DNA of 64,000 nt, taken from NCBI GenBank assembly GCA_963402885.1, contig OY727100.1:5505501-5569500 (forward strand). The letters run 5' to 3'. This document shows, one piece after another, positions 1 to 27,687 of this stretch. Under the pieces are notes generated by a model. The model was not told the origin of the DNA and searched no databases. It was given only the letters and a program-made list of their open reading frames with translations. Numbering within the stretch: the stretch's first letter is position 1; every line of letters starts with the position of its first letter. The position numbers and the translations under genes are program-made. The stretch is from Antedon bifida. Taxonomy: Eukaryota > Echinodermata > Crinoidea > Comatulida > Antedonidae.

Positions 1-1174
1 ATAAAACTTCCTCGCGATCTGTGTGAAAACACCTTCTCAACCGTGACGAGTTGTAAACAATCCTAATTACCATCATGCATAATGTATACTCATGGTTTGA
101 AATCTTTGTTTACTTTTGCTCGCGACGATTTTCCAGACGAAATGTAATCAAATTAATTAACTGTTAATTACGTAAAATGTTTGTTTTTGGCTCAAATTTT
201 CGACTTAAAGTGAATAACTTTAATATTACTTTGATATGGCCAATTTAAATTTAGAATATTTTGACCTTCATTTTTTTGTGTTTCAAGGGACAATACATCT
301 TTAAATAACAAATATTATTTGTATTTAAAAAACATGAAAAATGAATAATAATTAAAAAAAAGACTTTTTTTAGATCCAATTTTTTGAAAAACTATTATGT
401 GACATTAAAATGGCATATTAAAAAAACATTTAAAAAATTATTTTTTCAGGGGGACAATATCTTTATATTAAAAAATTTAGTTACAGCTGTAAAATACACT
501 CTATACATGATGAGGTGTGAAGCTCCACAAATCGAAATAATGGATTATCAAAAGAAAAACAAGGTTCAATAATTCAATCATATTACACCCACAAACAATA
601 ATTGAATGCGCCCGGTAATGTGATTTAAGTGAATGTCATCTTAAAAATGAATGAATAAATTATAAAATAATAAGACCTATGCATTATACTAGTGAGCTTT
701 TCAAAAACTAACGGCTTATTTCTATTACCGACTTAATACGTATGTAAGAAGATGTTTATCTTTAAAGACGCAAGAATATTAGTACTAGGCCTAGTACTAG
801 AACTATTGCCATTCTGTCTCACAAATAAAGCCAGACCTGGTATGTATTAAATGCATTTAAAATTTAGAACTAAGTGACTGCTTAAACATTAACTATCATA
901 TCTAAGTAGGCCTGTGTCTTAATAATCATGGGCAATGTTAGATATTTTAGATACTATTATCTGTTCTGGGACTGTCTTCTCACAGTAGGTTGGTGATCAT
1001 GGACATTCATCTTTTCTGCATTCTTATAATAACTATATCTTTTGTTCATATGTTATGTTGGGTCATTTTTTTTCTAATACTGTACATTGTAAAACATAGA
1101 TGTTTCGGTTTTTGCCGATTGTTCTCAGGTTTTGTGAAATTGTCAAAACTTTATACGGATAAACCGCATCTCAA
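1..1174. other. AT-rich noncoding stretch
   Basis: No coding exon, RNA gene or clear element was recognised. The part from about 280 to 470 contains GGGACAAT-type phrases and a run reading TGACATTAAAATG. Similar phrases recur around 25090-25170 (inverted), 30650-30740 and 37130-37250, so an old dispersed repeat is possible. Short ORFs here are low-complexity. Confidence 0.5.
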
Positions 1175-1313
1175 GGTATTCAATCTTGTTTCAAAGTGTT
1201 TTTCTGTTAGTTTTCAAATGTCCACGATACAACAGTGTTGAAAACACGTAACATTTTTTTTAGTGTTTGGTTCTGTTAGTGTTCAAGTTTCCACCATACA
1301 ACAGTGTTTTGTT
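1175..1313 (+). repeat. Diverged copies of a 68-bp satellite
   Basis: About two degenerate copies of the unit that is well preserved at 3106-3450. Shared phrases are TTCTGTTAGT, CCACCATACAACAGTG and GAAAACACGTA. Another piece lies at 1489-1521, on the far side of an inserted SINE, so the array was once continuous. Confidence 0.75.
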
Positions 1314-1488
1314 TATCCATCCAGCAATTGCTGTTCATTAGGGACCCTCAGAGGTTCACAAGACAAACATATACACAAGATGCTCTACATAAACAAAGTC
1401 TTATTACAATTTTTTTAGTGGAGTTGTAATTTTGATCCTGACATGTGACGGGACTTGAACCCAGGACCCTTGGAGTGGCAGCCAAGCA
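1314..1488 (-). mobile_element. tRNA-derived SINE, 5' truncated
   Basis: Read on the minus strand this copy carries a tRNA-like B box (GGTTCAAGTCC) and then the same body and tail as the copy at 22301-22523, ending in a GCTGGATGGAT-type 3' tail. It is bracketed by 68-bp satellite sequence on both sides. The A-box part is missing. The partner LINE is not known. Confidence 0.7.
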
Positions 1489-1521
1489 TTTTGTTAGTGT
1501 TTTGTTCTGTTAGTGTCCATT

Positions 1522-2322
1522 TTATTTTTTCATTTCTTTATTCGACAACAAGCGGTCCAGGGGTTGCGACAGCAACAGAGCGCCATAACACATTTGTGTC
1601 CGCAACCCCTGTAACATACAACATAATACAAGGTAAAAATGTAAACAACAGAATATTTAAAAAAAATTTAATTAATTTGTATTACTGTGTTACACAATTT
1701 TAAATACACCTATACAATTAAAATAAAGTTAGCGTTTATCAAGCAGATATTTTTTCAATTTCGACAGGAAATTTTTCAAAGGAAGAGTAACTGTTTGATC
1801 TTTGATTATGGGGGGTAGTGATGACCATATAACAGGAAAATTGTTGATAGACGAATATTTTAAAGTATCGGTACGTGCAAAAGGGTGGACAAATGTGAGT
1901 AATTCAGGATGGCGTTGATTGATATGGATATTATTATTTACAGTACTACAAAAAGTTACATTATAAAAACAACGAAATATAAAGGAAATTAAAATCATTA
2001 AATGTCTATCACGTAAAGATAACCAACCCAAAGTTATTAAACGTTCGTCGTATGATATAGGTTCGCAGTGGGTCACAGAATACGTCTAGAGGCCCGTCGC
2101 TGAACCTGTTCGAGGCGTTCTATGTGTCCTCCATTTCTGGGGCCCCACGCCGGCCAACCATACTCTAGAATAGGCAGCACCAAAGTTTTGTACAGACACG
2201 AAATCGCGTCTGGAGAACAATTTCCGGCTACAGAAAAAATAAAGCCTAACATTCGATTAGCTTTAGATATTAGATTATTGATATGTGTAACAGGTTCGTA
2301 CTACTAGCGTCGTAGCTTTATC
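1522..2322 (-). mobile_element. LINE 3' fragment (RT C-terminus and 3' UTR)
   Basis: The minus strand encodes the C-terminal part of a non-LTR retrotransposon polyprotein. The stretch from 2322 to 2077 contains the typical LEYGWPAWGP and RLEQVQRRASR signatures. The frame then breaks at about 2077, and a 115-residue tail (2076-1729) follows with YDERLITLGWLSLRDRH and a WSSLPPIIK-like motif. Downstream lies a 3' UTR with a strong hairpin (1559-1610) and an A-rich end near 1525-1545. The copy is 5' truncated and frameshifted, so it is dead. It ends inside 68-bp satellite sequence. Confidence 0.85.
1559..1610 (-). other. Hairpin in LINE 3' UTR
   Basis: A 10-bp perfect stem (AGGGGTTGCG paired with CGCAACCCCT) closes a loop of about 32 bases, just before the A-rich 3' end of the LINE. 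Stem-loops at this position are known to be bound by the element's own RT in some LINEs. That role is inferred here. Confidence 0.6.
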
Positions 2323-3105
2323 GCGTAGTATTTTCCGGAGCTGCAGCACTGGCACAAACACAATAAAATCATCCACAAAGACAGTTCTTGATTTGGAAAA
2401 GTTAAATTCTTTTATTGAAGCTAGTAACCAGTCGGAAGGAGATATAATAAAAACAGTGTTACTATATTTAAAATAACATATCAGTGATCGATCGATCAAT
2501 CGTATCATTAACGACAGTATAGGCTACTATTGCGTTGTGTCTAGTATAACAATCAAATAACTAATCAACTATATTAACTTAAAACAATTCTAAAATTAAG
2601 AGAGATAAAAATATAGATGCTTACCTAGTAACCAGTCGGAAGGAGATGAAAACCTTCACTTTGGGCTAGGCACTAGTAAGTGTCATCCATTCCCAGTTAG
2701 GTACTATGACAATTTTTAACCGATGGTATATACATTTACCATAACGTTATTTCGTAGTTTACAGACCGATTGTATTGTAACTCGAGTCATACACATGTAA
2801 TTATCAATTTAAAGTTCGGTTATACAAAAAAAGAAACTATTAAAAATGCAAATCAATTGACAAAATCCCTTGTCCATTTATGAACTGACCCATACTGAAA
2901 CATTATACACTAAATATTCATGACCATTTTCCCGCCACTTGGATGAGGTGACTCATCTATTTATAGCATGGTCACTTATCATTCCAGGTTTTACTTTAAT
3001 GGGTCCCACAAGGTTTCTCAGATTCAAGTCAGATTCAGCAGATAAATCATTCAAGTATTTGGGTATAAACTATAAGCATACCTGTTACATATGAACATTC
3101 CAATT
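2323..3105. other. Noncoding, with a 23-bp direct repeat
   Basis: No gene recognised. The identical 23-bp word beginning CTAGTAACCAGTCGG occurs at 2421-2443 and 2625-2647. Upstream exons of the receptor gene (signal peptide, possible LDLa modules) were looked for here and not found. Confidence 0.5.
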
Positions 3106-3450
3106 GAAAACACGTAGCATTTTGTTAGCGTTTGGTTCTTTTAATGTCCATGTTTCCACAATACAACAGTCTTGAAAACACGTAGCATTTTGTTAGTGTT
3201 TTGTTCTGTTAGTGTCCATGTTTCCACCATACAACAGTGTTGAAAACACGTAGCATTTTGTTAGTGTTTTGCTCTGTTAGTGTCCATGTTTCCACCATAC
3301 AACAGTGTTGAAAACATGTAGCATTTTGTTAGTGTTTTGCTCTGTTAGTGTCCATGTTTCCACCATACAACAGTGTTGAATACACGATCAGGTTTTTGCA
3401 TCGTGTTTGGTTCTGTCAGTGTCCATGTTTCCACCATACATCAGTGTAAC
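3106..3450 (+). repeat. 68-bp tandem satellite, about five units
   Basis: Units start at 3106, 3174, 3242, 3310 and 3378, an exact 68-bp period. Units 2 to 4 are nearly identical. The first and last are more diverged, as expected at array edges. The core phrase is TTAGTGTTTTGCTCTGTTAG. Confidence 0.95.
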
Positions 3451-3806
3451 ATTAATCTGTATCCTGTGGTATACAGCCGCAATAACGTATCACTGTGTGC
3501 GTGTATGGCGATGTCTATACGGTACCGGACACAGTCGAATACCTTTGTTTTAAAGACAATCTTATTTTGGAACTTATTAAATTAATATTATATAACAAGG
3601 CCATATGCATGGCTGCAGTCGCGTGCTCAAGTTAGTGTTTACCAACCAACCGATTATTTTAAAAGTTGTATTCATGTAAATATAATATTTGATTTATGCA
3701 TACCTACTGTACAAATTAATTTTTGACTAATGTTTTTTTTTATTGGTGAACATCGACGAATAGTTCTGTATAGACTTCACAAACAAAATGTTCAGTTTAT
3801 CCACAG
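3451..3806. other. Noncoding upstream of first visible receptor exon
   Basis: Contains a short relative (near 3596-3630) of the AAGGCCA...GTCGCGTGCT repeat seen at 18200 and 40310. It ends in a polypyrimidine-poor acceptor reading TTTATCCACAG at 3806. Confidence 0.4.
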
Positions 3807-3919
3807 GGTTGCTATGACCGCAAGATTGCTTTACCTACTGGTGTAGGTTGTTCGCCATGGAACATGAATACAGTTGCAGAACTCATTAAGTATAATAAAC
3901 AAAGCACCATATTATCATT
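3807..3919 (+). CDS. Exon: N-terminal cap of the LRR ectodomain
   Basis: 113 bp, entering in phase 0 and leaving in phase 2. The frame opens with GCYDRK and closes with KQSTILSL, the last leucine completed by the first base of the next exon. It contains two cysteines and looks like an LRR N-terminal cap. The donor is GTAAGT. A 1.9-kb intron follows in which no further exon was recognised. Confidence 0.6.
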
Positions 3920-6900
3920 GTAAGTATTGCAGTGTACATGCGGTTGCTTTTAAGTAAATACAGAATTTACTTTTTTTGGTGATAAACGCTAACTTTGTTT
4001 ATTTCTCAATGTAGAGGGTATTGCTAAACCGAAAACCTTAAAAAAACATAGCAAACCCCATCGAACCAACATAAAAAAGTAGAATTTATTTCGTCACTTT
4101 GACAAATTGTAGGTGATCATTGTGATAAAAAAATATCTATATATAAATTTACGTAAGGGCAAAATTCGGTAAATCGCGCCTTACTTTTAGAATTTGTACT
4201 CGATGGTATATAAAGTTGGTTCGTACTTTCGGTACTGATTTTAACCACCTGATGTAACCCTGTTTACTAATTAAATTAAGTTAGATAATTAGTTATTGAC
4301 GATTAAAACGAATTTAGGTTCAACGATTTGCCCCAAATAGGGGTGTTTTCCGATCGTGGTATACACTGTCTAATGGATGTCCATCTTGAAAAATACCCGC
4401 CAAAGAAATGCGAGGAGGCTTCGCATTTTCCTATCTCCTCCTACGATAATTGTTTTTAATAGCTGAAAACCGGTTGAACAGCTAGAGTACAGCATCATAA
4501 TTTCTTTAAAAAATACTATTTTGATAGATTTAATATACGATTATACAAATGTATTGATTTGCGTTGAATGGAACATCCCAATCTCTCAGTCTGCCAGAGT
4601 TTGGTTTATCACAAGTAGGTAAATTTATGAGCCCTTGGTTTAACACATACGGAAGGTAAATATATGGGCCCTTTGAGAATAAACTTGCAATACTTTGACA
4701 ATACTGTAAATACCTATTAACTATTGTTGGTCCTTATTTGAATCGAACATTTCTTACTGTGAATGTTCGTACTGTTAGATGTAATATAAAAATATACACA
4801 AATAAACTTTATTACTGAGATTGTGGATAGGCTCTACTGTTAGATATATAAACACATTATTATATACAAATAAACTTTCTACTGACAGTTCCTTCTCAAC
4901 GTTTGTATTAATTAATAATTACCAAAAATATAAACGTCGTAGTGGTGTATCGTGACATGTACTTTAATATTTCAATCGATTATGACAGTGACAGTTTTAA
5001 CAAAGTATTAAATCGCAAATGTTTTACTGTATTTATAGGTATATTATTTATAGGCCTATAAAACATGAAAAAAATATTTCGTTACTGAGTGGATAAAGAA
5101 TATATTTAAAAATTGTTCCTCTTTGTACCTATCCGCTTTCCCATCCCTCAACCCTAATGTTACATACAAAACACAAATTGGGTTTCTTTAAATGACTCCA
5201 AATCAAAAATGTGGACTCATTTTGTGATAATTTTCTCCTTCGGAAGTAATTCCCAGGACTAGGGTGCTAATTTTAGTTGACTACATAAATCATCGTGTCT
5301 ATTTATTCGTTTCTGTAAACGACAATGCATTATAGTCATGCGGTACGGTAAGTACATTTGAAATCGCCAGTTTTGTTACGCTGAAATTACTGTGTATTCG
5401 AGAACCATCTAGTATTAAAATATGAGCGCAAAGCGTTGTAGTGCTGCTGAGTTGTGCCTATTGTGTAGTCATAGAATATATAAGGTATAATTATAATATA
5501 CACGGGTCCCGTATATGTTTTAATGGCATGATGACGTTATCCAAATCAAAGAAAGAAAATTACAGAATTGTAAATCGTCCAAGATAGACAATGATTTATT
5601 ACTGATATTTTTTCAAAAACACGGGTGAAATGGACTGATACTGCTAAGAGAGAGAAATGCCTAATAAAGTCTACTTTAGTTTTAAAATAAGAAAAAAAAA
5701 AGCATTGTATTTTGTAATTCTCACACTCTAGGCCCTTAACGTTTATTTCTGTTTGTTTTTATATTTCTTTAATGAATAATTAAACTTTCTTTTACATTTC
5801 ACAACTTTAAAGAGGTTTGTACAGCAATAACATTAGTACATTGACAGAGAATGCATTCGCTGGTTTGGAATCATTGGAAGGACTGTAAGTGACGTTGTTT
5901 ATGTGTACATACCTATGACGTTACTGCACAAATATACACATTATTATTTAAAAACAATACTGTAATTTAAAACTAGTAGTAGTACATAAATATATAGGCC
6001 AAATGCTTATTTGTGTCATATTTTAAATTAAATTCTTCATTCTTCCGTTGCAAAATGTAAATTAAATGGTGAGTTTATGTGCTGATAAGCACAAACGGAT
6101 GTATAAAAGTATTATTGTCAGAAATCTTAATAAATGTGATAATTCATTTCAAAAAATCCACATCAATTTATATTTATTCATTTGAAAAAAATGTTGATTG
6201 TTTTTGAATTGTTTAATGAATTATTTAGCAGTATTAGTATGCATAATTAATAAAACTATATCTTTTACATTTCACAACTTTTAAGGGATTTGCACAACAA
6301 TCAAATTAGTACATTGACAGAGAATGCATTCGCTGGTTTGGAATCATTGGAATGGCTGTAAGTGACGTTGATTATGTTTACATACCTATAAAGTTAATCC
6401 TAATGTTATTTACTGCACAAACACACCTTTAAAAACAATATTTTAAAACTAGTACATAAATATAGGCCAGTGCTTATTGTGTCATATTCAAAATTAAATT
6501 CCTCAATATTAAACTGTATGAAAGCAAACTTGAGCCTGAAACTGTAAAGGCTTTCCGTTACAAAATGTAAATTAAATGGCGAGTTTAGCAATTATTTGCT
6601 GATATGCTCACAATGATTGTATAAATGTGTTATTGTCAGAAATATTAATAAAGGTGATAACTGATTGCAAAGCATTAACATCATCCTATATTTATTTATT
6701 TGAATAATTTAAAAAAATTTTGATTGTCTTTTAATTGTTTAATGAATTATTTAGCAGTATAATATGGTATAATTAATCAAACTTTCATATTTCACAACTT
6801 TGAAGGGGGTTGCACAACAATCAAATTAGAACATTGACAGAGAATGCATTCGCTGGTTTGGAATCATTGGAATGGCTGTAAGTGACGTTGATTATGTTTA

Positions 6901-9900
6901 CATACCTATGACGTTACTGCACAATATACACAAATTTAAAAACAATATTTTAAAACTAGTACATTATAGGCCAATGTTTATTGTGTCATATTCAAAAGTA
7001 AATTCTTCAATATTAAACTGTATGAAAGCAAACTTGAGCCTGAAACTATAAAGGCTTTCCGTTTCAAAATGTAAAACTAAATGGTGAGTTTAGCAATTAT
7101 TTGCTGATATGCTCACAATGATTGTAAAAATGTGTTATTGTCAGAAATCTTAATAAATGTGATAATTCATTGCAAAGCATCCACATCAGCCTATATTTAT
7201 TTATTTGAATAATTTAAAAAAAATGTTGATTGTCTTTTAATTGTTTAATGAATTATTTAGCAGCATAGTGTGGTATAATTAATTAAACTATATCTTTTAC
7301 ATTTAACAACTTTTAAGGACTTTGCATAACAATCAAATTAGTACATTGACAGCCAATGCATTCGCTGGTTTGAAATCATTGAAAGAACTGTAAGTGACGT
7401 TGATTATGTTTACATACCTATGACGTTAATCTTAATGTTATTTACTGCACAATATATACACATTTAAAAACAATATATTAAAACCAGTACATAAATATAG
7501 GCCAATGCTTATTGTGTCATATTCAAAAGTAAATTCTTCAATATTAAACTGTATGAAAGCAAACTTGAGCCTGAAACTATAAAGGCTTTCCGTTGCAAAA
7601 TGTAAAATTAAATGGTGAGTTTAGCAATTATTTGCTGATATGCTCACAATAATGTATAAATGTGTTATTGTCAGAAATCTTAATAAAGTTGATAATTCAT
7701 TGCAAAAAATCCACATCAGTCTATATTTATTCATTTGAATAATTAAACAAAATGTTGATTGTCTTTTAATTGTTTAATAAATTATTTAGCAGCATAATAT
7801 GGTATAATAATAAAACTATATCTTTTACATTTAACAACTTTTAAGGTGGTTGTACGACAATCAAATTAGTACATTGACAGAGAATGCATTCGCTGGTTTG
7901 GAATCATTGTATAGCCTGTAAGTGACGTTGATTATGTTTATATACCTATGACGTTAATCCTAATGTTATTTAGCACAATAATAGGCTATATACACATATT
8001 TAAAAACAATATTTTAAAACTAGTACATAAATATAGGCCAATGCTTATTGTGTCATATTCAAAATGAAATTCCTCAATATGGTGATATTAAACTGTATGA
8101 AAACAAACTTGAGCCTGAAACTGTAAAGGCTTTCCGTTGCAAAATGTAAATTATTTTGCTGATAAGCACACAATGATGTTAATAAGTGTTATTGTAAGAA
8201 ATCTTAATAAATGTGATAATTCATTGCAAAAAATCCACAATATTTATATTTCAATAATCTAAAAATGGTTCATTGTTATATTTAATAGCATAGTAAGCCT
8301 GTGGTGTAATGAATAAAACAACAATATACACAATATGTATACATAGATATATGATGTGTGCTTTTTTAATTAAATCAAATCATTCAATCAAATAACAGGA
8401 AATATTCAGGTGTTATATAGTATGGTATAATTAATAAAACTATCTTTTACATTTCATTATTTTTAAGGTTGTTGCAAAGGAATCAAATTAGTACATTGAC
8501 AGAGAATGCATTCACTGGTTTGGAATCATTGCAAGACCTGTAAGTGTTATTACATCATATCCACATACGTACCTCCATACTGTATATCATGTTTTATACA
8601 CATTGTACATACATCGTAACCTTATTTGGTTACTTTTGTCGACATGGATTATTTTCATAATAATTCATTATTGAGTAAATCAAAATTATAGTATTTATTA
8701 GTTTGTTACCAATATTAGGTAACGGTGACGTTGTTTATGTTTACATACCTATGACGTTAATCTTAATGTTATTTACTGCACAATATACACATATTTAAAA
8801 ACAATATTTTAAAACTAGTACATAAATATAGGCCAATGCTTATTGTGTCATATTCAAAAGTAAATTCTTCAATATTAAACTGTATGAAAGCAAACTTGAG
8901 CCTGAAACTATAAAGGCTTTCCGTTGCAAAATGTAAAATTAAATGGTGAGTTTAGCAATTATTTGCTGATATGCTCACAATGATGTATAAAAGTGTTATT
9001 GTCAGAAATCTTAATAAAGTTGATAATTCATTGCAAAAAATCCACATCAGTCTATATTTATTCATTTGAATAATTAAAAAAATGTTGATTGTCTTTTAAT
9101 TGTTTAATAAATTATTTAGCAGCATAATATGGTATAATAATTAAACTATATATTTTGCATTTAACAACTTTTAAGGTGGTTGTACGACAATCAAATTAGT
9201 ACATTGACAGCCAATGCATTCGCTGGTTTGGAATCATTAAGAAGACTGTAAGTGACGTTGTTTATGTTTACATACCTATGACGTTAATCTTAATGTTATT
9301 TACTGCACAATATATACACATTTAAAAACAATATTTTAAAACTAGTACATAAATATAGGCCAGTGCTTGTTGTGTCATATTCAAAATGAAATTCGTCAAT
9401 ATTAAACTGTATGAAAGCAAACTTGAGCCTGAAACTATAAAGGCTTTCCGTTGCAAAATGTAAAATTAAATGGTGAGTTTAGCATTTATTTGCTGATATG
9501 CTCATAATGATGTATAAAAGTGTTATTGTCAGAAATCTTAATAAAGTTGATAATTCATTGCAAAAAATCCACATCAGTCTATATTTATTCATTTGAATAA
9601 TTAAAAAAAATGTTAATTGTCTTTTAATTGTTTAATAAATTATTTAGCAGCATAATATGGTATAATAATTAAACTATATCTTTTGCATTTAACAACTTTT
9701 AAGGTGGTTGTACGACAATCAAATTAGTATATTGACAACCAATGCATTCGCTGGTTTGGAATCATTAAGAAGACTGTAAGTGACGTTGTTTATGTTTACA
9801 TACCTATGACGTTAATCCTAATGTTATTTACTGCATAATATACACATATTTAAAAACAATATTTAAAAACTAGTACATAAATATAGGCCTATGCTTATTG

Positions 9901-12900
9901 TGTCATATTCTAAATTAAATTCCTCAATATTAAACTGTATGAAAGTAAACTTGAGCCTGAAACTATAAAGGCTTTCCGTTGCAAAATGTAAAATTAAATG
10001 GTGAGTTTAGCAATTATTTGCTGATATGCTCACAATGATGTATAAATGTGTTATTGTCAGAAATCTTAATAAATGTGATAATTCATTGCAAAGCATCCAC
10101 ATCAGCCTATATTTATTTATTTGAATAATTTAAAAAAAATGTTGATTGTCTTTTAATTGTTTAATGAATTATTTAGCAGTGTAATATGGTATAATTAATA
10201 AAACTATATCTTTTACATTTAACAACTTCTAAGGTGGTTGTACGACAATCAAATTAGTACATTGACAGCCAATGCATTTGCTGGTTTGGAATCATTAAGA
10301 AGACTGTAAGTGACGTTGTTTATGTTTACCTATGACGTTAATCATATTGTTATTTACTGCACAATATATACACATTTAAAAACAATATTTTAAAACTAGT
10401 ACATACATATAGGCCAATGCTTATTGTGTCATATTCTAAATGAAATTCCTCAATACTGTATGAAAGAAAACTTGAGCCTGAAACTGTAAGGCTTTACTAA
10501 ATGTGATAATTCATTGCTAAAAATCCACATCAGTCTATATTTATTCATTTGAATAATTAAAAAAGAATGTTGATTGTCTTTTAATTGTTTAATGAATTAT
10601 TTAGCAATATAGTATGTAGTATGGTATCATGAATACAACTTTTTGTTTATATTTCACAACTTTGAAGGTACTTGGAAAACAATCAAATTAGTACATTGAC
10701 AGATAATGCATTCGCTGGTTTGGAATCATTGAAAGTACTGTAAGTGACGTTGTTTATGTTTACATACGTTAATCATAATGTTATTTACTGCACAATATAC
10801 ACATATACACATATTTAAAAACAATATGTTAAAACTAGCACATTAATATAGGCCTATGCTTATTGTGTCATATTCAAAATGAAATTCGTCAATATTAAAC
10901 TGTATGAAAGCAAACTTGAGCCTGAAACTGTAAAGGCTTTCCGTTGCAAAATGTAAATTAAATGGCGAGTTTAGCAATTATTTTCTGTTAATCACACAAT
11001 GATGTATAAATGTGTTATTGTGAGAAATCTTAATAAAGGTGATAATTCATCAGTCAGTAATCCACATCAGTCTATATTTAATTTATATTTCAATAATCTA
11101 AAAATGGTTCATTGTTATATTAAATAAGTATTTAGCAGCATAGTAGGCCTGTGGTGTAATGAATAAAACAACAATATACACAATATGTATACATAGATAT
11201 ATGGTGTGTGCTTTTTTAATGAAATCATATCTTTCAATCAAATAACAGGAAATATTCAGGTGTTATATAGTATGGTATAATTAATAAAAACTATCTTTTA
11301 CATTTCATAATTTTGAAGGTGGTTGCAAAGGAATCAAATTAGTACATTGGCAGCCAATGCATTTGCTGGTTTGGAATCATTGAAAGACCTGTAAGTGTTA
11401 TTACATCATATCCACATACGTACCTCCATACTGTATATCATGTTTTATACACATTGTACATACATCGTAACCTTATTTGGTTACTTTTGTCGACATGGAT
11501 TATTTTCATAATAATTCATTATTGAGTAAATCAAAATTATAGTATTTATTAGTTTGTTACCAATATTAGGAATATTTAGCATTGTTATAGCCTGTGAATC
11601 AAATTTAAGTTAGTAAGCTATAAGATTTAAAAAGACATTTTTAATTTTATTCGTATTTATTCATTCATTTTGACACACCAGCCCTGGTTTTTATTCTTAC
11701 AAAGTTATTACAATTTAATCTCACTCTTATTTGTTGTGACGAAATACCTCTCCTCAAAGAATTGACCAATATACATTAACTATTAGCTTAATTAAACAGG
11801 TATTTACAGGACAACAATATAACTACTATTGATCAAGGCGCCTTCTCTGTTTTTGCCTCATCACTTGGAAAACTGTAAGTAATTTATTCTGAAATTCATA
11901 TGCAGTTTCTCGAAATAATTAATCACTTCAATTAGGTACTTTTCTTATGCTATAAACATGTTATCCAAGAAATAACGGTATCAACAGGATAGGTTTACAT
12001 ACATTTTTTAAACATGGGTAAATTTTTACAAGTTAATCTAACAAGTAGAACAAACAACTTTTTATATAATTAAACATATAAGTAGAAGGATTATCTTAAG
12101 TGCCGACGGTGATAAAAATATTATTTTGAGACTACATTGCATCAGTTAGACACTAAATTGATTGTGGTATACCTTCATGAATACGATATCACTAAAACGA
12201 CATCGGTGCTATCCAAATGAGACATACTCGTAGATATTTAGTTACATGTGAGCTACACTCATTGACACTGATTTGAAATTTGTTTCCATATTTATTTATT
12301 TTTACAGAGACATCAGACGCAACAATTTACAAGTTTACAGAGAAAGTACTTTTGAAGAATTGAAATATATAACAGAATTGTAAGTATGATGTCGGATTTA
12401 GAAATTCTTTATATTCATTAAATGATATTTTTATTTTGTTTTAACACAGTTACCAATTCCACATGCATGCCGACAGTGGCCCAACAAAATTGTTTATGTA
12501 GGCCTACAGCTTTTAGGTTATTTTAAATTTCTCCTTCACTTCTATCTTTTAAATTGGTCGTACACGTCATACTTTTGCTATACGAGTAGATTTGATTGGC
12601 TGTAAAGCAGTCGTTATTCCACCTGTTATAAACTTAAAACCATTATAAACATTGTTATAGTAGGCTACTACTGTATTTAACAACTTCCATTAAATTCAAT
12701 TGTTTTTTTAACATAGATATTCAGATTTGTTTCGTCTCTGTTGCGTTGTTGGAGAAATTGAAGTATGTGAGCCTACTGATGCTTTTGCGTCCTGCACTGA
12801 CTTACTAAAGAGAGAAATTCTTAGGATATTGATGATAGTTATTGGACTGTCATCTTTTATCGGTAACTTGATTGTCATCATATCGCGAAGGATAAACAAA

Positions 12901-13701
12901 GAAAATAGGTCTACAGTTGATTCTATTCTACTCACTAATCTTGCCGCATCTGACCTCCTGATGGCAATTTATTTGCTGATCATCGCAGGTGCGGATATAC
13001 ACTACAGAGGAAGATACGCGAAGGTTGCCAGCGAATGGAAAAACAGCTTTCTCTGCTCGTTTTCCGGTGCTATTTCAACACTGTCTGGCCAGTGTTCAGT
13101 GTCAACCTTGATGCTTATGAGTATTAACCGTGCTATAAACATCGTCTATCCATTCAGCACCAAGCGGCTCAAACGTACGAAATGCAAAATTATCATCGGT
13201 ATTGCTTGGCTAGTATGGCTTTGTATTAGTTTCCTTCCACTGGTAGCTAACAAGTCACATGTCGCCATACCGTATTTTGGCGAGAACTACTACGGAAAAC
13301 AAAGTGTGTGTCTCGCGTTGCCACTAACACGACATCGATTACCAGGCTGGGAGTACGCCACTGCCATATTCATCGCATTCAATGGCTTGGGTTTTTTTGT
13401 TATCGCAGCAAGTTATTTGACGATTTTCCTCTCCGTTAAACGATCTGCAATTACGGCTAACAGAAGGCAGAGACGAGAAGAGGAAATCAAAATGGCCGTG
13501 AAACTAGGGTTTATTGTTTTCACCGATTTCTGTTGCTGGTTTCCCATCATAGTAATGGGAATTTGTTCAGAGATGGAGTGGTGGAGAATTCCTGATGATA
13601 TATACGTTTGGGCAGCAACATTTATTATTCCCATTAACTCATCAGTAAACCCATATCTTTACACAATTATCTATATGTGTAAAAGCGAGCGCAGGCCATA
13701 A
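3807..13701 (+). CDS. Relaxin-receptor-like LRR G-protein-coupled receptor (5' end missing)
   Basis: A cell-surface receptor with a leucine-rich-repeat ectodomain and a rhodopsin-type seven-helix module, closest in layout to RXFP1/2-type LGRs and molluscan GRL101. Exons read from the sequence: 3807-3919, then eleven 72-bp LRR exons (first 5813-5884, last 11319-11390), 11800-11874, 12308-12379 and the terminal exon 12717-13701. All internal LRR junctions are phase 2 with GTAAG donors, so any exon can be dropped without a frameshift. Family hallmarks are the loop motif FGENYYGKQSVC, the TM6 motif FTDFCCWFPI and the TM7 motif NPYLY. The signal peptide and any LDLa modules must lie upstream and were not found. 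Ligand unknown; a relaxin/insulin-like peptide is the family expectation. Confidence 0.85.
3920..5812 (+). other. Long first visible intron of the receptor gene
   Basis: AT-rich, with no LRR-like or other coding exon recognised. It is unlike the later short introns, so it predates the exon amplification. Confidence 0.45.
5813..5884 (+). CDS. LRR exon 1 of the tandem array
   Basis: 72 bp, phase 2 to phase 2. Reads GLYSNNISTL then TENAFAGLESLEG. Exposed strand residues are G, Y, S at the start and E, G at the end. Confidence 0.85.
6286..6357 (+). CDS. LRR exon 2 of the tandem array
   Basis: 72 bp. Reads DLHNNQISTL then TENAFAGLESLEW. The flanking intron is nearly the same as those of the other copies. 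Confidence 0.85.
6806..6877 (+). CDS. LRR exon 3 of the tandem array
   Basis: 72 bp. Reads GLHNNQIRTL then TENAFAGLESLEW. It has a single serine-to-arginine change outside the strand. Confidence 0.85.
7318..7389 (+). CDS. LRR exon 4 of the tandem array
   Basis: 72 bp. Reads TLHNNQISTL then TANAFAGLKSLKE. Same splice phases and GTAAGTGACG donor. Confidence 0.85.
7846..7917 (+). CDS. LRR exon 5 of the tandem array
   Basis: 72 bp. Reads WLYDNQISTL then TENAFAGLESLYS. Confidence 0.85.
8468..8539 (+). CDS. LRR exon 6 of the tandem array
   Basis: 72 bp. Reads LLQRNQISTL then TENAFTGLESLQD. The introns on both sides match those around exon 11 rather than those of its neighbours, up to a break near 8718. 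Confidence 0.85.
9176..9247 (+). CDS. LRR exon 7 of the tandem array
   Basis: 72 bp. Reads WLYDNQISTL then TANAFAGLESLRR. Near-identical to exons 8 and 9. Confidence 0.85.
9704..9775 (+). CDS. LRR exon 8 of the tandem array
   Basis: 72 bp. Reads WLYDNQISIL then TTNAFAGLESLRR. Confidence 0.85.
10234..10305 (+). CDS. LRR exon 9 of the tandem array
   Basis: 72 bp. Reads WLYDNQISTL then TANAFAGLESLRR, the same protein as exon 7. The following intron is shortened by a deletion. Confidence 0.85.
10668..10739 (+). CDS. LRR exon 10 of the tandem array
   Basis: 72 bp. Reads YLENNQISTL then TDNAFAGLESLKV. Confidence 0.85.
11319..11390 (+). CDS. LRR exon 11 of the tandem array
   Basis: 72 bp. Reads WLQRNQISTL then AANAFAGLESLKD. 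Paralogue of exon 6, judging from the shared intron sequence on both sides. Confidence 0.85.
11800..11874 (+). CDS. Diverged LRR exon 12
   Basis: 75 bp, phase 2 to phase 2. Reads YLQDNNITTIDQGAF then SVFASSLGK. It fits the LRR consensus but is not part of the recent array; one extra codon and an unrelated intron set it apart. Confidence 0.8.
12308..12379 (+). CDS. Diverged LRR exon 13
   Basis: 72 bp, phase 2 to phase 2. Reads DIRRNNLQVYREST then FEELKYITE. Last LRR before the membrane module; its donor GTAAGT is clear. Confidence 0.8.
12717..13701 (+). CDS. Terminal exon: LRR C-cap and seven-transmembrane domain
   Basis: Enters in phase 2 after an ACATAG acceptor and ends at TAA 13699-13701. 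It starts with a cysteine cap (FRLCCVVGEIEVCEP). TM1 is ILMIVIGLSSFIGNLIVIIS, TM2 holds NLAASDLL, TM3 ends MSINRAINIVYPF, TM6 holds FTDFCCWFPI and TM7 NPYLY. The DRY-type triplet at the end of TM3 reads NRA. The cytoplasmic tail is only about a dozen residues (MCKSERRP at the end), much shorter than in vertebrate RXFPs. All seven helices in one exon and the sequence similarity place it with relaxin-type LGRs. Confidence 0.9.
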
Positions 13702-15512
13702 AGCGCTGACATTCCCCGTGCTTTCTCAGTTTATTTATTTACTACATTTATTTATTCAATTTTGATTCACAAGGGTAGCTCTAACAGGTGTACTAGTACA
13801 ACTGTCTTGAAGAGGACCTTTTGAAAACATTATACAATTATACAAAAAGACATTCAAATATCAAATTACAAGTAGATTCATAAAGCCTGTCATTACAATT
13901 TGTTTTATGTATCCAAAAATCCGGGCGATTTCCGCTAAACGGCACAAAATCACCAAAAAACAGCTATTTTTTGGAGGTTTTTTCAATGTAAGTTTGTTAT
14001 TAATTGACCGATTTTTATGGCTGTTTCGACATTGTAATGCCTAATTAAGTACCTACAATGTCATGTTATTTTTAATTTTAAAAAAACTTAAAACGTCGTC
14101 GTCGGCATTGATTTTTAAAGTTAGACGATTTGAAAATTGCCCTGTGTTAAAGAATAGGCTTGTTTTGCCAATTTGTTGAGATTTTTACAAAAACGTTTGT
14201 TCTAGTTATCCAATGATATTGGCTGTTCCACCATGCAAAAGCTAATCAATCAAGCTTTCTAATGACCTAAAGTAAAATGTGATTGGTTCAGATACTTCGT
14301 CGGCACAGCCCCTTTTTTGAAGCAGTGTTTTGGTTTGTCAGTGACCGGCTAGTGTTAAAGGATAGGCAAAAACCTTTCCTGAGCAGTCAGAACGTAACGT
14401 TAAAACTAAAATTACAGTTGCTGAAAAACTACTTATTCAAAACGCTTTATTTTTTCACGAAAGTTAAGAGTTATTATCCCTTATTTGTAATATGTAAAAT
14501 GTATTTAAGATTAGGGTACAGGATATTTTATATAAGTAGTATTAAAACACTTGGTTTATTTGAAAACCACCAGCGTGGTTTTGCCGTATTGGCGGACTCG
14601 TCTATTTTACTAATAGGAAAAGGATTGTAGCACATATATAAAACGTTGAATTTGACCCTATATGGTTTCCATTTCTGTTTTCTAATGTAAAATTAATTAT
14701 ATATTATTAGTATCTCTATGTAATATATAATATATTCATATTGTACTAGTTAGCATCTACATGCCGTTATGCTGCACTTTGTTTTGGTGATTTTTCAATG
14801 AATTGTATACACAGTGAGTTGGTATACCATTGGTTCTACTAAAATTATTATTACTTTTATTTGTTTGTGCAATATTTGAAGATTGCTAAAAAATAGAAAT
14901 AATTTAAATATAATGTATTTAACAGATTAAGTGTACGCACTATGCCTATGGAACAGATTACCTATCGAGCGTAGTTCAGTATGAAACATCTGATAATTCT
15001 ATTATTACCCTGTATCAGCCTCCGCCCTTTTGGGCTTTTTTCTCCTATACAATACTTATTGTTAATGCACCATAGTTATTTTAAGGGGAGTAGTCTCCTA
15101 ATAAATAGTTCTTAGCACTCTAACATTGTTCTTTTGTATCTATTGTATTGTTTTGTTTTCTTTCATTAAAAACTTTTGTTAACTGTCTGAAAGTTACCTC
15201 CTAGCAAAGTGGGACGACCCAACATGGTTCATTAACCACCACTGTGTTAGGGAGCAGATTGAGATCAAGTGATAAGAGCCCAACGCACTAAAATTAAATA
15301 GGCCCAAAAAACAAAACAAATTATTGTAATGTTTCCTGTCGATCGTTAAGTTGCGTTGAGTTGCGCTAAGTTGCGTTGAGTTGACATATTCAACGATTTG
15401 ACAGGAAAAGGGGGTAAAAAATTAACGTTACAAGTCGTTAAAGTCTGAAATCATAAATTTACAAGTAGATTCATAAAGTTAAAATTCAGGTTTTTAAAAA
15501 GTTAAAACATTA
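13702..15512. other. Noncoding 3' flank of the receptor gene
   Basis: Contains the presumed 3' UTR, but no clear cleavage site was settled on. The 115-codon open frame at 14283-14630 has a low-complexity, hydrophobic translation and no recognisable domain, so it was not called. Confidence 0.4.
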
Positions 15513-20092: not shown

Positions 20093-23000
20093 CTTAAAGC
20101 AAGAATGTTTTAAATGCGTAAACGTGTGGAGGTTGTTGTTGGAATTAGATGTCAAAAGATTATAGAAGTGGAAGTCGTCGTCCTAAAAATGATTATACTC
20201 ATCTATTTACCGTTAGAAATATTCTATTCTACCTTTGTGATTTGAAATCCAAAGTCATTCCACTTGCTTTACCCAGTTGGGAGTTCACAATAATTTTCCT
20301 TTCACTTCCATCAAGTCTAGCACGCTCAATATGTGAATATATTCCAAGCTCTATCCAAAATATATATCTACCAAAGGACATAGATTTTGTTTTATTAAAA
20401 TTAATTTGCTCTCTTAATTTTATTTATGCTTTAAAATGTGACACTAAATTAATAATAATACTTGTTTTGTAACAATTACCGGTGAATTGGGTCAACTTCA
20501 ATACTCGTTGGCTGCACTGTATGAATCACAACATGACGATACTGTCCATCATACAATGACATCATGACATGATTATTAGTAAAATCAGTCCAGTACAGTG
20601 TTTTAGATAGATAGTCGATAGCAATACCTAAGAAAATTAATATAACATTACAATAAAACAAATAAATAGTTACACGGAACCAGAAGGTATTATGATTTAT
20701 ACAGCAAATATACCTCTCACTGAACCCAAATTTGTAGAAATCAGCCTTGGTTTAGCAGCTATCTTTAAATCTAAGCTGAAGATTGATTTAACATTTTCAT
20801 CCGAAAAGAACAAAATTTGTCGTGTGACGTCTGCTTCTAATGCAATTATAAGATGTTGGTTGTATAGCAATTCGTCAATAGCATCGTTTGGTGAGAGAGC
20901 ATACGGAAAGTTTTCGAGTTTTCGGATAGACGTTTGATTTGAGTATAGTAAAGCTGGCGTGGGGAAGAATCCATCTAGGAAAAAACAACAGCAATTAGCT
21001 TATAGATTAAGACAAAATTAAGCGGACGAGATAAAGAGGCAATTCAATTGTTTTTCTAATACATTTATTCATCTTTATTTAATAACACTTTTCTAGTTAA
21101 AAATACTGTTGCTAACTGTATTATGAAGCAACAAACTGCAAGCTATAACTTTTGTTTTATTGCTGTTGACTCTCTTTAACCTACCACGCTGACATAGTTT
21201 TCCACCAGGCAACAGATAAAATGAGTCTGTACACACGCATCTGTAATCATCATTTTCAGCACTAGTGCAGACATGTAAACAAGGATTGCTCAAACAAGGG
21301 GCTAAAAAGATGAAGAAATTACCAACTTAATAATGCAATCTTAAGATTACTCCTACATAAAATTAGGAAGATGTCAATTATTTGTATGCGTTTGTAATGA
21401 ACCAACAATATATTTTTTTACAATTGCGTTGTTAGAATGTCTTACATACATTGTTGATTTACTTGACTGTCATCTTCGAATAATATTGAAATTCCATATG
21501 GGCGCCAATCCAAATCTACGTAAAAATAGACCTGTTCTGACGGTTTATGAATACCCCATACTTTGTGATTCCAATCAGTTATGTAAACATGTTCCTGAAA
21601 AATATTGAGAACGTAAGTCTGACTCTTTTAAAACAAAAGCAGCAAACGTTATCTTTTTAAAAATTTACCTGTAAGTTAGTAATAGTAATATGCTATTTAA
21701 ACTATTCATTAACTAAGCCATCTAAATTTTACTCTGCATTATTACCTTATGTACTTTTAACTTAAAAAACTCAGATGTAAACCTGGGCTTTCTGAAATGA
21801 ATGCGTCGATATGATCCATTAAGGTCACATGACTCAACCTTAGAATACTCATCATCAACGTCTGTCCAATAAAGTCTAAACATCGAAGCAGCAAAGTGAG
21901 CCAACATGTTCATTTTATAAAAGTAAACATATATATATATATCCGATAGGTTATCGACACAATTGCAATTTGTTTTGTTGTTAGTATAAGTTACCTGTTG
22001 TCGGCATTAGGCGAGGTTATACCAGTGGTGATAAAATCTGTTCTGTTTGTTCCATCGAGATTTGCTTTTTCTATTTTCGGCACTTTTCCACAATCACTCC
22101 AAAATAAAAGTCTGTAAAAGAAAGAATTTATATGGCCATAAACACAGATGTTCCTGGTTTTTTTTTATAAATACACATTCAATAAGACATTTTTAGAAAA
22201 TAATTATTATTTGCTCAACTCCTACTCTTGAGATTTATTACCCGCCGTTTATTATTTCTTCCTTTTTCAAGTTCTTGCTAACTTTTTTTTAAAAACAATA
22301 TTTAATGAGGGTGATCCATCCAGCAATCGCTGATCATTAGGGACCCTCAGAGGTTCACAAGACAAACATATACGCAAGATGCTCTACATAAACAAAGTCG
22401 TAATTATTACAAATCTTTGGGAGTGGAGTTGTAATTTTGTCCTTAGAAAAAATCCTGACATGTGACGCAGGACCCCTGGAGTGGTAGCCAAGCATCATAA
22501 CCACCAAGCCACAACAACCGGGTTTTACATTGTTTTAGTAGAGAAAAGAAGGTGACATGTACTTCAAAATTAAATGTACAGTATATATTTATTGCTAATA
22601 ATTTCTTGTCAAAGTAACCTTAAATAATAAATTGCTATAAATAATATTTAAAAAATACTGTTATATCACCCTTTGACTGGATGAACTGCTATTCCACGTG
22701 GCTTGTCTAATCCTTCTCTCACCAAAATAACATAGCGTCGATTGTCCCTATAATTGATTAGAAAAATCCAGTTGTATGTCTGGTCAATAATGTACAGAGT
22801 TTTTGCCAGCCAGTCGACAGCAATTCCTTCAACACTTTTGGAGGTTTTATCGATTACTACACTAACACTCTCATTTGCAATCAATTTTGTTTTGTATACC
22901 GACGTGCGCAAGCTAGCACTGAAAAATACCGTCTGATCGGTATTGTCAGTGTCTAAAGCAACAAACTTCCCTGGTTCAACAGTAAATGTTAACGTTTTTT

Positions 23001-23117
23001 CCACATCTGTCTTTGTGCCTGCTTCATATTTCGATAGATTTGCAGACATAGTTACAATTTTTACAGCCGGTACCGATGGGTTTCTTGTGTCCACTTCTGT
23101 CCATATCAACCGATCGT
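19974..23117 (-). CDS. LRP-like gene: YWTD beta-propeller, EGF, second propeller (partial)
   Basis: Nine minus-strand exons with matching splice phases: 23117-22670, 22111-21995, 21875-21746, 21594-21450, 21301-21185 (EGF), 20974-20714, 20627-20480, 20367-20233 and 20092-19974. The order of LDLR class B (LY) repeats, one EGF module and then a new propeller follows LRP5/6-type and other LDLR-family ectodomains. LY signatures are [37 protein letters not shown] and YIFWIEL. The last visible exon carries an apparent frameshift (see findings). Upstream and downstream exons were not recognised. The repeats are divergent, so orthology to a particular LRP is not claimed. Confidence 0.75.
20233..20367 (-). 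CDS. YWTD exon H
   Basis: 135 bp, phase 2 to 2. Reads [20 protein letters not shown] and then [12 protein letters not shown], ending DFKSQR. It lies antisense to a longer open frame on the plus strand at 20149-20472; the splice phases and LY consensus favour the minus strand. Confidence 0.8.
20480..20627 (-). CDS. YWTD exon G
   Basis: 148 bp, phase 1 to 2. Reads [20 protein letters not shown] and ends IEVDPIHR. It has the best-preserved YWTD motif of the gene. Confidence 0.85.
20714..20974 (-). CDS. Exon F: start of second propeller
   Basis: 261 bp, phase 1 to 1. Reads [15 protein letters not shown] and later [20 protein letters not shown], the normal opening of an LRP propeller (LLxSNxxxIRxL). 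Confidence 0.8.
21185..21301 (-). CDS. EGF-like exon E
   Basis: 117 bp, phase 1 to 1. Reads [19 protein letters not shown] and then [18 protein letters not shown]. The six-cysteine EGF pattern is complete, the type that closes YWTD propellers. Confidence 0.85.
21450..21594 (-). CDS. YWTD exon D
   Basis: 145 bp, phase 0 to 1. Reads [18 protein letters not shown] and ends [12 protein letters not shown], the usual last blade before an EGF module. An alternative GTAAGA donor five bases further on would break the EGF frame, so the GTATGT donor was chosen. Confidence 0.8.
21746..21875 (-). CDS. YWTD exon C
   Basis: 130 bp, phase 2 to 0. Reads [20 protein letters not shown] and ends KLKVHK. The acceptor is GTTTAG, the donor GTAATA. 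Confidence 0.8.
21995..22111 (-). CDS. YWTD exon B
   Basis: 117 bp, phase 2 to 2. Reads [20 protein letters not shown] and then [19 protein letters not shown]. Family repeats usually have a PNGLxxD segment before the next LYW; here it is shortened to PNADNR, a probable small in-frame deletion. Confidence 0.8.
22301..22523 (-). mobile_element. tRNA-derived SINE in an intron of the LRP-like gene
   Basis: Read on the minus strand it opens with a TGGCTTGGTGG A-box-like word, followed by the body shared with 1314-1488, and ends GCTGGATGGATCACCCTCAT. The B box is damaged in this copy but intact at 1455. It lies in the intron between exons A and B and ends in an A/T tail. Confidence 0.75.
22670..23117 (-). 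CDS. YWTD exon A (first propeller blades)
   Basis: Reads from [10 protein letters not shown] to [10 protein letters not shown], covering about three LY blades. The CAG before DDRL can serve as acceptor. The open frame continues upstream through a hydrophobic, signal-peptide-like stretch (IVLFSSLLVLVTSSSA), but no ATG precedes it before an in-frame stop. The true 5' boundary is therefore open. Ends in phase 2. Confidence 0.75.
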
Positions 23118-23281
23118 CTGCTGATGAAGAAGTTACTAAAACAAGCAAACTTGAAAACAAGACAATTTGAGAATAAAAAATTGTTTCAACCTGTTCAAAC
23201 TAATCACATAAAAAAGACATATTTGTACAATAATATAATTCAAACAATAATAATAATAATAATACAAATAATAATAATGCA

Positions 23282-26087: not shown

Positions 26088-26511
26088 GAGGGGTATACAT
26101 AGCTATGATAGGCATAATAATGGTTTGATAACATTTGATAATATGACATGTACGTTGAAAAAGCAGTCGGATTTACTGATTACATTTTCTACTGACTCAT
26201 AGCTTGATGGTCTAAATAACATTACAGGTATCTTTTTGAATTATATGTGCTTCCGGGTGATCTAAACTGAACGTGAAATTTTCACGACAAAACGACGAAT
26301 TTCGTTTCTATTTCGCTAGGCTACACGATTACACCTAACACCCACGACAGATATCTACCCAGCGGAACAGACAACGACATAGGCACTGCTTTTTGTTATC
26401 TTAGCGTCTTTTGTCTAACTGTCAGTGTATTGTTCTAACGTGTGCTGCTTAGCAACCGGACTCACTACATACCTGTAGCCTTTGTTTCTTTTTTGACCAA
26501 ACGAGAGTGAC

Positions 26512-27687
26512 ATGGCGAATGCAACTCAAACCAAAGATAAGTACACAAAATGTTCTACAGCCTCAGGAAAGATCTGCATCTCAACGTGTTCTCTCAAAGG
26601 GAGCGCCAACAAGGGCAATACCATTCGATGTTGCATATGTGGCCACTGGTATCACGAAAGCTGCCTGAAGTTGAGTGAGGTGGAGTCAACTGGCGTTTGG
26701 CCATGTTTCAGTTGCAGACATATGTCATCTGATGTATCCGAAATACTTGTTCTTGTAAAGACTCTCATAGATACAACTAATAACCATTCGAAAGTTATTC
26801 GGGAGCAATCTGACAGGATACTGCAATTGGAAGAACTACATATGAAGCAGACGGATACGATAGAAGGTCTTAGTGCTACTATCAAAAAGCTAAACAACGA
26901 GACGCTTACTCATAATGAAGATGTAAATTCACCTGAAACTATAGATCAGAGGGTGCAAAAAAACCTGCTAATTGGAGATTCACTTGTAAAAAACATTGTC
27001 TCTTTGAAGGATGACTTGATTGTTCATTCAATAAAAGGAGCATGTATCAGCGACATAAAATCGTATTTTGATGATCCGAATACTGGTACATTCAAAGATA
27101 TTACAATAGTCTGCGGCACAAATAACCTTGCTTCGAATAACTCTGCTGATGAAATCGCAAGTGAATATACAGATTTAATCACGCAGGCAAAGTCCAAATC
27201 CGAACAATTGACTGTGTCCAGCATCCCTCCCCGCGTTGACAACAGGGTTGAACCTAATGTGATCTTGGATTTAAACGCAATATTGAAAACTGTCTCCGAA
27301 GAAAGTGACATTACTTTCGTTGACAACGATAGCAACTTTCGATACAAAGATGATTGCCCAGACAAATCCCTTCTTTGTACAGATGGTCTTCATTTATCAG
27401 AAGCGGGAGTAAATCGCCTTCTACAAAATGTGTCTCTAAGCGAAAGCGCCATCTTTCGAGATGGGAGAAGAAACTCAAATCAGCGTTCCAAAAGGCAGTC
27501 TCATCGGAAGGCTTACAAACCAACCCGGCGGCAGCATTACTCTACACTCAACGCGAACAGCAACAGATCATCAGACCGACGTAGACCAGTTACGTGCTAC
27601 AACTGCAGGCAACAAGGTCACAAGCAACAACACTGCCCATACGAACAATATCAACCAAACAACTGGTATCACGACGGACCGTTTTAA
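26512..27687 (+). CDS. LINE ORF1: PHD finger, coiled coil, SGNH esterase, zinc knuckle
   Basis: 391 aa, uninterrupted. Residues about 23-68 form a PHD-type zinc finger (C-C, then CCICGHWYHESC, then PCFSC). Residues 75-130 are coiled-coil-like. Residues 150-308 match an SGNH/GDSL hydrolase, with IGDSLV at 154-159, GTNN at 202-205 and the catalytic DGLHLS at 291-296. The C-terminus has a CX2CX4HX4C zinc knuckle (C362, C365, H370, C375). ORF1 of this kind is known from CR1/L2 elements; its roles are RNA binding and an esterase activity of unclear purpose. The start ATG sits after a long upstream leader. Confidence 0.9.
   Translation: MANATQTKDKYTKCSTASGKICISTCSLKGSANKGNTIRCCICGHWYHESCLKLSEVESTGVWPCFSCRHMSSDVSEILVLVKTLIDTTNNHSKVIREQSDRILQLEELHMKQTDTIEGLSATIKKLNNETLTHNEDVNSPETIDQRVQKNLLIGDSLVKNIVSLKDDLIVHSIKGACISDIKSYFDDPNTGTFKDITIVCGTNNLASNNSADEIASEYTDLITQAKSKSEQLTVSSIPPRVDNRVEPNVILDLNAILKTVSEESDITFVDNDSNFRYKDDCPDKSLLCTDGLHLSEAGVNRLLQNVSLSESAIFRDGRRNSNQRSKRQSHRKAYKPTRRQHYSTLNANSNRSSDRRRPVTCYNCRQQGHKQQHCPYEQYQPNNWYHDGPF

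Follow-up and report, generated by a model that had tools for sequence, protein, structure and literature searches.

Divergence concentrated on the putative binding face among amplified leucine-rich repeat exons of a predicted crinoid G protein-coupled receptor

A 64,000-nucleotide stretch of the genome of the crinoid Antedon bifida (C13:5505501-5569500, contig OY727100.1; hereafter the window) holds one predicted plus-strand gene, at window positions 752-13702, that would join an ectodomain of leucine-rich repeats (LRRs) to the seven transmembrane helices (7TM) of a class A G protein-coupled receptor (GPCR). Eleven of its LRR exons form an amplified array whose copies differ from one another far more at the codons of the concave face than in their introns. 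Judging from the DNA, we consider it probable that the gene belongs to a large LRR-GPCR family in which duplication and exchange of exons, together with selection, have diversified the binding face in the germline and left the signalling output conserved. The pattern suggests that a variety of recognition surfaces has been favoured in evolution, all carried by a signalling receptor that is itself conserved. Variation was compared among exon copies and paralogs of one genome, 315.6 Mb in 27 contigs. Its mitochondrial contig has AAA at places where asparagine is conserved in COX1 and ND1, which indicates the genetic code of echinoderms and flatworms. A 4.3-kb stretch of that contig, taken on the COX1 strand, contains 46.0% T, 25.9% A, 16.1% G and 11.9% C. 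This is near the 44.9% T, 24.0% A, 19.0% G and 12.1% C given for the complete mitochondrial genome of Poliometra prolixa, the one crinoid compared (PMC10478607).

A previous sequence-only reading of the window had described eleven near-identical 72-bp LRR exons between 5813 and 11390, and we found all of them there, each in phase 2 with an AG acceptor and a GTAAGT donor. None of the eleven carries a frameshift or stop codon. The structural leucines are constant in 11/11 exons and the exposed residues listed copy by copy in that reading are correct. Its "almost fixed core" holds apart from NNISTL in exon 1, NQIRTL in exon 3, NQISIL in exon 8, NAFAGLKSL in exon 4 and NAFTGLESL in exon 6. The five exposed codons hold 4-7 different residues each across the eleven exons and the other 18 hold one or two; the exception, with four (E in five exons, A in four, T and D in one each), is index 11, counted from 0 among the 23 whole residues, which lies outside the concave strand. 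The introns, described as nearly the same, turned out to be merely similar, with a mean pairwise difference of 0.155 and 2.4% for the closest pair; array units 1 and 7 are 74% identical.

Positions 2, 3, 5, 7 and 8 of LxxLxLxx point to the concave side of an LRR domain (PMC8226289). Our face positions are these five of LxxLxLxxN, set by the LRR repeat rule and already singled out by the earlier reading; by the same rule we ourselves assigned each of the other codons as exposed or structural. To our knowledge any old LRR protein varies at concave-face positions, which means that a contrast with buried residues proves little and that neutral sequence is the real test. Nucleotide diversity at the 15 exposed-codon sites of the window array is 0.493, compared with 0.155 in the downstream introns and 0.207 in the 60 bp upstream (intron columns with <70% coverage excluded, <90% for the minimum-change count below). 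This puts exposed sites at 3.19 times the downstream introns (2.47-3.89 when columns are bootstrapped). When 15 downstream-intron columns were drawn at random 20,000 times, a diversity of 0.493 was never reached. Exposure alone is insufficient as an explanation, since the other presumably exposed codons show a diversity of only 0.088; the remaining exon sites are at 0.035.

The same contrast appears within the exons, where the nonsynonymous difference at exposed codons is 0.514 and the core synonymous difference 0.090. The bootstrap median of exposed nonsynonymous over core synonymous difference (pN and pS) is 5.5 (3.7-14.5) in the window and 3.7 (2.6-5.4) in a set of 24 exons from C13, which leaves out the damaged exons B1_5, B1_8 and B1_9 of the paralogous array B1 and the exons of B3, near-copies of B1 (a 26-exon entropy table still includes B1_5 and B1_8; the damaged last exon of array B2 was never counted as a unit). 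Because copy pairs are not independent and exchange scrambles trees, we also used a tree-free minimum-change count, states minus one per site, which gave 1.67 for exposed sites and 0.72 and 0.82 for the introns. The concentration of variation on the concave face that the earlier reading proposed is therefore borne out, with intron and synonymous divergence both well below that at the exposed codons. The leucine codon flanked by two exposed codons is TTG in 55/58 exons (six of the 58 being B3 near-copies), so the variation respects codon borders, as amino-acid selection would and unlike a mutation hotspot. A mutational hotspot was ruled out, as the codons beside the exposed ones scarcely vary.

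The excess recurs in all five further arrays of the genome that were tested. Exposed/intron ratios are 2.72 for B1 (C13, 8 exons) and 1.96 for B2 (C13, 5 exons), and on C12 they are 1.96 at 4.23 Mb (9 exons), 1.57 at 3.97 Mb (11) and 2.37 at 23.90 Mb (7). The 95% bootstrap intervals over columns all lie above 1, with 1.07 as the lowest bound. By the minimum-change count, exposed sites likewise exceed introns in the pooled 24 C13 exons and in the three C12 arrays (weakest P = 0.018). B3, with six intact exons, was not counted as a separate array and the C11 locus showed two LRR exons. Part of one related array is compact, with three exons spaced exactly 227 bp apart at C12:23901981-23902506, two of them with identical peptides.

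Several observations weigh against steady diversification by selection. Inside the exposed codons pN/pS is close to 1, at 1.42 (0.80-2.93) in the window and 0.95 (0.65-1.44) in the 24 exons, with a synonymous part inflated by path averaging over multi-base codon differences. Codons for the same residue differ in 3/41 pairs at exposed positions of the window, and in the 24-exon set in 56/267 exposed pairs versus 323/4409 elsewhere. Exons 7, 8 and 9 are identical at all five exposed residues (W.YD/RR), although the introns of exons 7 and 8 differ by 6.1%, and faces are also identical between B1 exons 3 and 4 and between B2 exons 2 and 3; diversification is therefore not uniform. Exposed-site distance shows no correlation with downstream-intron distance (Mantel r 0.10 and -0.03). 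Ten Mantel comparisons in the window yielded two significant results, which also emerge from the 24-exon set. Both concern the 5' exposed codons, whose distances rise with those of the adjoining 60 bp of upstream intron (r 0.54, P = 0.007) and with those of the 3' exposed codons (r 0.39, P = 0.008). The former link fits older linked variation. Core and downstream-intron distances correlate with nothing. Finally, damaged exons occur in the paralogs (3/11 in B1, 1/6 in B2 and 1/7 in B3; none in the window), which we read as birth and death of exons. Since the downstream introns are untracked, the upstream flank is tracked and three faces are identical, exchange and older variation appear to be involved, and not point-by-point diversification alone.

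These observations could be taken further, to exposed-site variation that is old and effectively neutral: the exons would have diverged long ago with their core under purifying selection, and gene conversion would later have homogenised the introns. The pN/pS near 1, the two correlations of the 5' exposed codons, the mutual independence of core, 3' exposed codons and downstream intron, and the ordinary core of exon 6 within a block common to exon 11 are all compatible with such a history. We nevertheless regard it as unlikely. The core synonymous difference does not exceed that of the introns, so the exons as a whole are not older, and homogenisation would need to spare single codons directly beside near-invariant ones such as the TTG leucine. 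Nor would it account for the low diversity of the other presumably exposed codons or for an excess in 6/6 arrays. Older variation, retained and moved between copies, probably accounts for some of the exposed-site excess; on either account it is the face that retains diversity.

Exchange and turnover can be read from the arrays themselves. The splice junctions of the array all interrupt the leucine codon at strand position 4, so that one exon supplies positions 2 and 3 and the next supplies 5, 7 and 8. Gain, loss, movement or skipping of an exon therefore makes new faces with the frame, and presumably the fold, kept. Across 5.9 kb that take in the array and the DNA upstream of it, B1 (C13:3718885-3724075) and B3 (C13:3783437-3786676) share 98.7% identity; B1 has 11 exon units and B3 seven, which on this alignment is a recent change of four repeats. 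Within the window, the block around exon 6 and its counterpart around exon 11 differ at 9/361 aligned bases in the flanks (gaps excluded; 0/173 in the downstream part) and at 7/72 in the exon. The exon is thus more divergent than its flanks (Fisher P = 0.009), with two differences on the face and five in the core. Together with the resemblance of the exon 6 core to that of other exons, this makes a short exchange likely. A PHI-type test for mosaicism within the exon gave P = 0.0002 and carries little weight, as sites within a codon are not independent.

The signalling part shows the opposite behaviour. The 7TM exons of three C13 paralogs are 97.3-97.6% identical to that of the window, and across the six pairs of these four genes the nonsynonymous/synonymous rate ratio (dN/dS) is 0.15-0.17, with a dS of 0.023-0.085. 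The signalling part is therefore constrained by purifying selection.

Taken together, the window would contain one intact gene of an LRR-GPCR family that descends from relaxin-receptor-type LGRs (LRR-containing GPCRs) or stands close to them. If the gene is expressed, its 13 LRRs would form a horseshoe with the concave β-sheet as recognition surface, and the 7TM domain would pass on a conserved signal by way of G proteins. The array would gain and lose 72-bp exons through unequal exchange and block duplication, processes that keep the frame because the exons are phase-symmetric, and short exchanges would mix parts of exons. Selection would favour or keep differences at positions 2, 3, 5, 7 and 8, with the other residues, buried or exposed, varying little. 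The earlier reading spoke of diversification of binding specificity; diversification of the face is well supported, and we infer that the face binds ligands. These are most likely varied environmental, microbial or conspecific proteins or peptides, bound for sensing or defence.

The gene model was defined by reading the region and comparing paralogs, which extended the array described earlier to a gene with signal-peptide, N-cap, two more LRR and 7TM exons (Table 1). Joining the 16 exons gives a predicted intact frame of 711 amino acids with GT-AG splice sites throughout, in the order signal peptide, N-cap, 13 LRRs, hinge and class A 7TM. For the signal peptide, a candidate near window position 999 was rejected in favour of the exon at 752-839, present in all three C13 paralogs as well. 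The 5' half of the N-cap exon (3807-3860) is strongly divergent among paralogs, with length steps in multiples of three, and its 3' half is conserved. Intron 1 holds a 68-bp tandem repeat in five copies (3104-3447), and similar sequence lies upstream of the paralogous arrays.

Table 1 Predicted exons of the LRR-GPCR gene and the block common to the exon 6 and exon 11 regions, in window coordinates.
Feature	Position	Strand	Basis
Exon 1, start codon and signal-peptide-like sequence MFIFKDARILVLGLVLELLPFCLTN...	752..839	+	frame and GTATGT donor intact in three C13 paralogs; in-frame junction to exon 2
Exon 2, N-cap-like (YPQGCYD...CSPWNMNTVAELIKYNKQSTILS-L)	3796..3919	+	aligned with three paralogs; GTAAGT donor
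LRR exon 1 GLYSNNISTLTENAFAGLESLEG	5813..5884	+	splice sites and frame read
LRR exon 2 DLHNNQISTLTENAFAGLESLEW	6286..6357	+	splice sites and frame read
LRR exon 3 GLHNNQIRTLTENAFAGLESLEW	6806..6877	+	splice sites and frame read
LRR exon 4 TLHNNQISTLTANAFAGLKSLKE	7318..7389	+	splice sites and frame read
LRR exon 5 WLYDNQISTLTENAFAGLESLYS	7846..7917	+	splice sites and frame read
Block around LRR exon 6, sequence common to exon 11 region (about 11130-11570)	8280..8712	+	alignment
LRR exon 6 LLQRNQISTLTENAFTGLESLQD, inside block common to exon 11 region	8468..8539	+	splice sites and frame read
LRR exon 7 WLYDNQISTLTANAFAGLESLRR	9176..9247	+	splice sites and frame read
LRR exon 8 WLYDNQISILTTNAFAGLESLRR	9704..9775	+	splice sites and frame read
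LRR exon 9 WLYDNQISTLTANAFAGLESLRR	10234..10305	+	splice sites and frame read
LRR exon 10 YLENNQISTLTDNAFAGLESLKV	10668..10739	+	splice sites and frame read
LRR exon 11 WLQRNQISTLAANAFAGLESLKD	11319..11390	+	splice sites and frame read
LRR exon 12, 75 bp, YLQDNNITTIDQGAFSVFASSLGK, outside amplified array	11800..11874	+	counterpart in three C13 paralogs
LRR exon 13 DIRRNNLQVYRESTFEELKYITE, final LRR ahead of hinge	12308..12379	+	counterpart in three C13 paralogs
Hinge and 7TM exon up to stop codon; class A GPCR, RXFP/LGR-like	12717..13702	+	phmmer, Pfam, dN/dS

That the array belongs to a GPCR, as first proposed from the letters, was confirmed by PDB and Pfam matches. A phmmer search of PDB with the 7TM exon found relaxin receptor 1 as the top match (7tmw, E 5.5e-48), with bit scores of 167 for RXFP1, 107 for FSHR and 92 for TSHR. 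Pfam recognizes LRR_8 (1.1e-73) and 7tm_1 (4e-30) on the predicted frame, and the ectodomain aligns with the IGF acid labile subunit in repeat register, with LGR4 and LGR5 among the best matches listed. An LRR ectodomain joined to a class A 7TM, which defines the LGR superfamily, is thus predicted here, and LRRs, cysteine-rich hinge and 7TM stand in one chain as in relaxin-receptor-type LGRs. The LDLa module is named as a distinctive feature of type C LGRs, the relaxin receptor type, in one account of these receptors (PMC11863921). No such N-terminal module was found on the 711-residue frame in a Pfam scan at E 0.001, which a very divergent module could escape. A search for an LDLa-like cysteine pattern in C13:5485501-5521499 and C13:3705001-3815000 gave a single match, with two internal stops and on the strand opposite to the genes. 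The gene differs from classical relaxin receptors in that these searches found no LDLa module, in its near-identical amplified LRR exons and in the dozens of related 7TM exons in the genome.

Loss of the aspartate of the DRY motif raises basal activity in other GPCRs. At the corresponding place in the third transmembrane helix (13120-13134) the window gene reads N-R-A (SINRAINIV), as do the three C13 paralogs, whereas the C11 and C12 relatives read D-R-A.

Searching the genome with the 7TM exon returned at least 118 matches, at least 67 of them stop-free, spanning at least 319/328 residues and at least 41% identical; among those 67, at least 41 have at least 69% identity. LRR exons were read beside the 7TM at five further loci (the three C13 paralogs, C12:4.23 Mb and C11:3.27 Mb), and the LRR arrays at C12:3.97 and C12:23.90 Mb were read without their 7TM, which makes seven further places in all. 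The other 61 full-length 7TM relatives presumably carry LRRs as well. A cluster of matches to the NQISTL pattern at C13:6.21-6.42 Mb was rejected, as four sites in the two 10-kb stretches read are a stop-filled repeat and not LRR exons. In the literature searched we found no account of this LRR-GPCR family; an earlier report may exist.

The relaxin-receptor affinity raises the question of whether this is an ordinary peptide-hormone receptor with extra LRRs, its faces reflecting coevolution with one hormone or serving as spacers. Few peptide ligands are known for LGRs, and the number of full-length 7TM relatives far exceeds them. The nearest solved 7TM relative is indeed relaxin receptor 1, and starfish relaxin-type peptides are described as acting via RXFP/LGR3-type receptors (PMC11863921). 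Set against this are the negative LDLa searches and the account of Veenstra (2021), which finds one ortholog per relaxin/insulin-type LGR in those ambulacrarians it covers, at a time when a single crinoid genome was available (PMC8286064). We consider the hormone-receptor explanation very unlikely.

Another way to obtain diversity from such an array is alternative splicing, with different subsets of the phase-2 72-bp exons used per cell and one gene yielding many ectodomains. Each of the eleven array exons, as well as the 75-bp and the last 72-bp LRR exon, could be skipped without a frameshift, and human NLRP3 is a documented case in which frame-preserving LRR exons are skipped (PMC6642158). 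Frame-preserving exons of LRR size are, however, enriched in human LRR genes according to the same study, so the layout alone is no evidence for regulated splicing, and 11/11 array donors being GTAAGT leans towards constitutive inclusion. A splicing repertoire thus seems to us quite unlikely. A Dscam-like alternative exon array would include its exons alternatively in transcripts; what the DNA shows here is that the array exons are frame-symmetric.

The earlier reading was also reminded of variable lymphocyte receptors (VLRs), and as a pattern this likeness stands. In lampreys and hagfish these secreted or glycosylphosphatidylinositol-anchored LRR proteins, which have no 7TM, keep a fixed LRR scaffold and vary on the concave face; their germline gene is incomplete and is completed from flanking LRR cassettes. 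The crinoid gene shares the fixed scaffold and the face-restricted variation. As a mechanism the likeness fails: the predicted protein has a 7TM, and the germline DNA already holds every part of the gene, from the signal peptide through the 7TM and splice sites included, so no cassette assembly is needed. Only the repeated look and the place of variation favour somatic assembly, which is almost certainly not at work here.

Further parallels in single respects come from plant and human NLRs. Highly variable plant NLRs have hypervariable positions such as 2, 3, 5, 7 and 8 of LxxLxLxx (PMC8226289), and the window array shows the same excess of amino-acid variation at these positions, here between exon copies and not between individuals. 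Unlike the plant receptors, the animal gene places its predicted ectodomain outside the cell on a 7TM and has one exon per LRR. Human NLRs, NLRP3 among them, also have frame-preserving LRR exons with a border fixed within the β-sheet (PMC6642158), but the array exons differ from these in being 72 bp long, near-identical and recently amplified.

Elsewhere in the window, open stretches resembling exons of an LDL-receptor-like protein lie on the minus strand at 20476-23199, two with LYWTD and a third with a related motif. The same 156-bp tandem repeats occur in opposite orientation at 52449-52852 and 54238-54653, with about 1.4 kb between them, in an arrangement resembling the arms of a mobile element, and open stretches at 26497-28718, 47082-49276 and 49514-51339 resemble retrotransposon genes.

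The pattern is thus known from VLRs and from hypervariable plant NLRs and the chassis is that of an LGR; here binding-face diversification is seen in a GPCR family. Each LRR of the array has a recent, frame-neutral exon to itself, so that in a non-vertebrate animal the introns offer a direct yardstick for the gain, loss and exchange of repeats and for selection. As a more tentative and rather doubtful proposal, dozens of such array genes, with faces exchanged and selected and perhaps mixed by splicing, would equip individual crinoids with differing sets of receptor specificities towards non-self or conspecific signals, and a G protein, not an immune kinase or a cytidine-deaminase system, would provide the readout. 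Should microbes, gametes or chemicals be what the family senses, echinoderms would possess a receptor repertoire that has gone unrecognised. The finding also suggests that fast-evolving recognition can draw on relaxin-receptor-like GPCRs.

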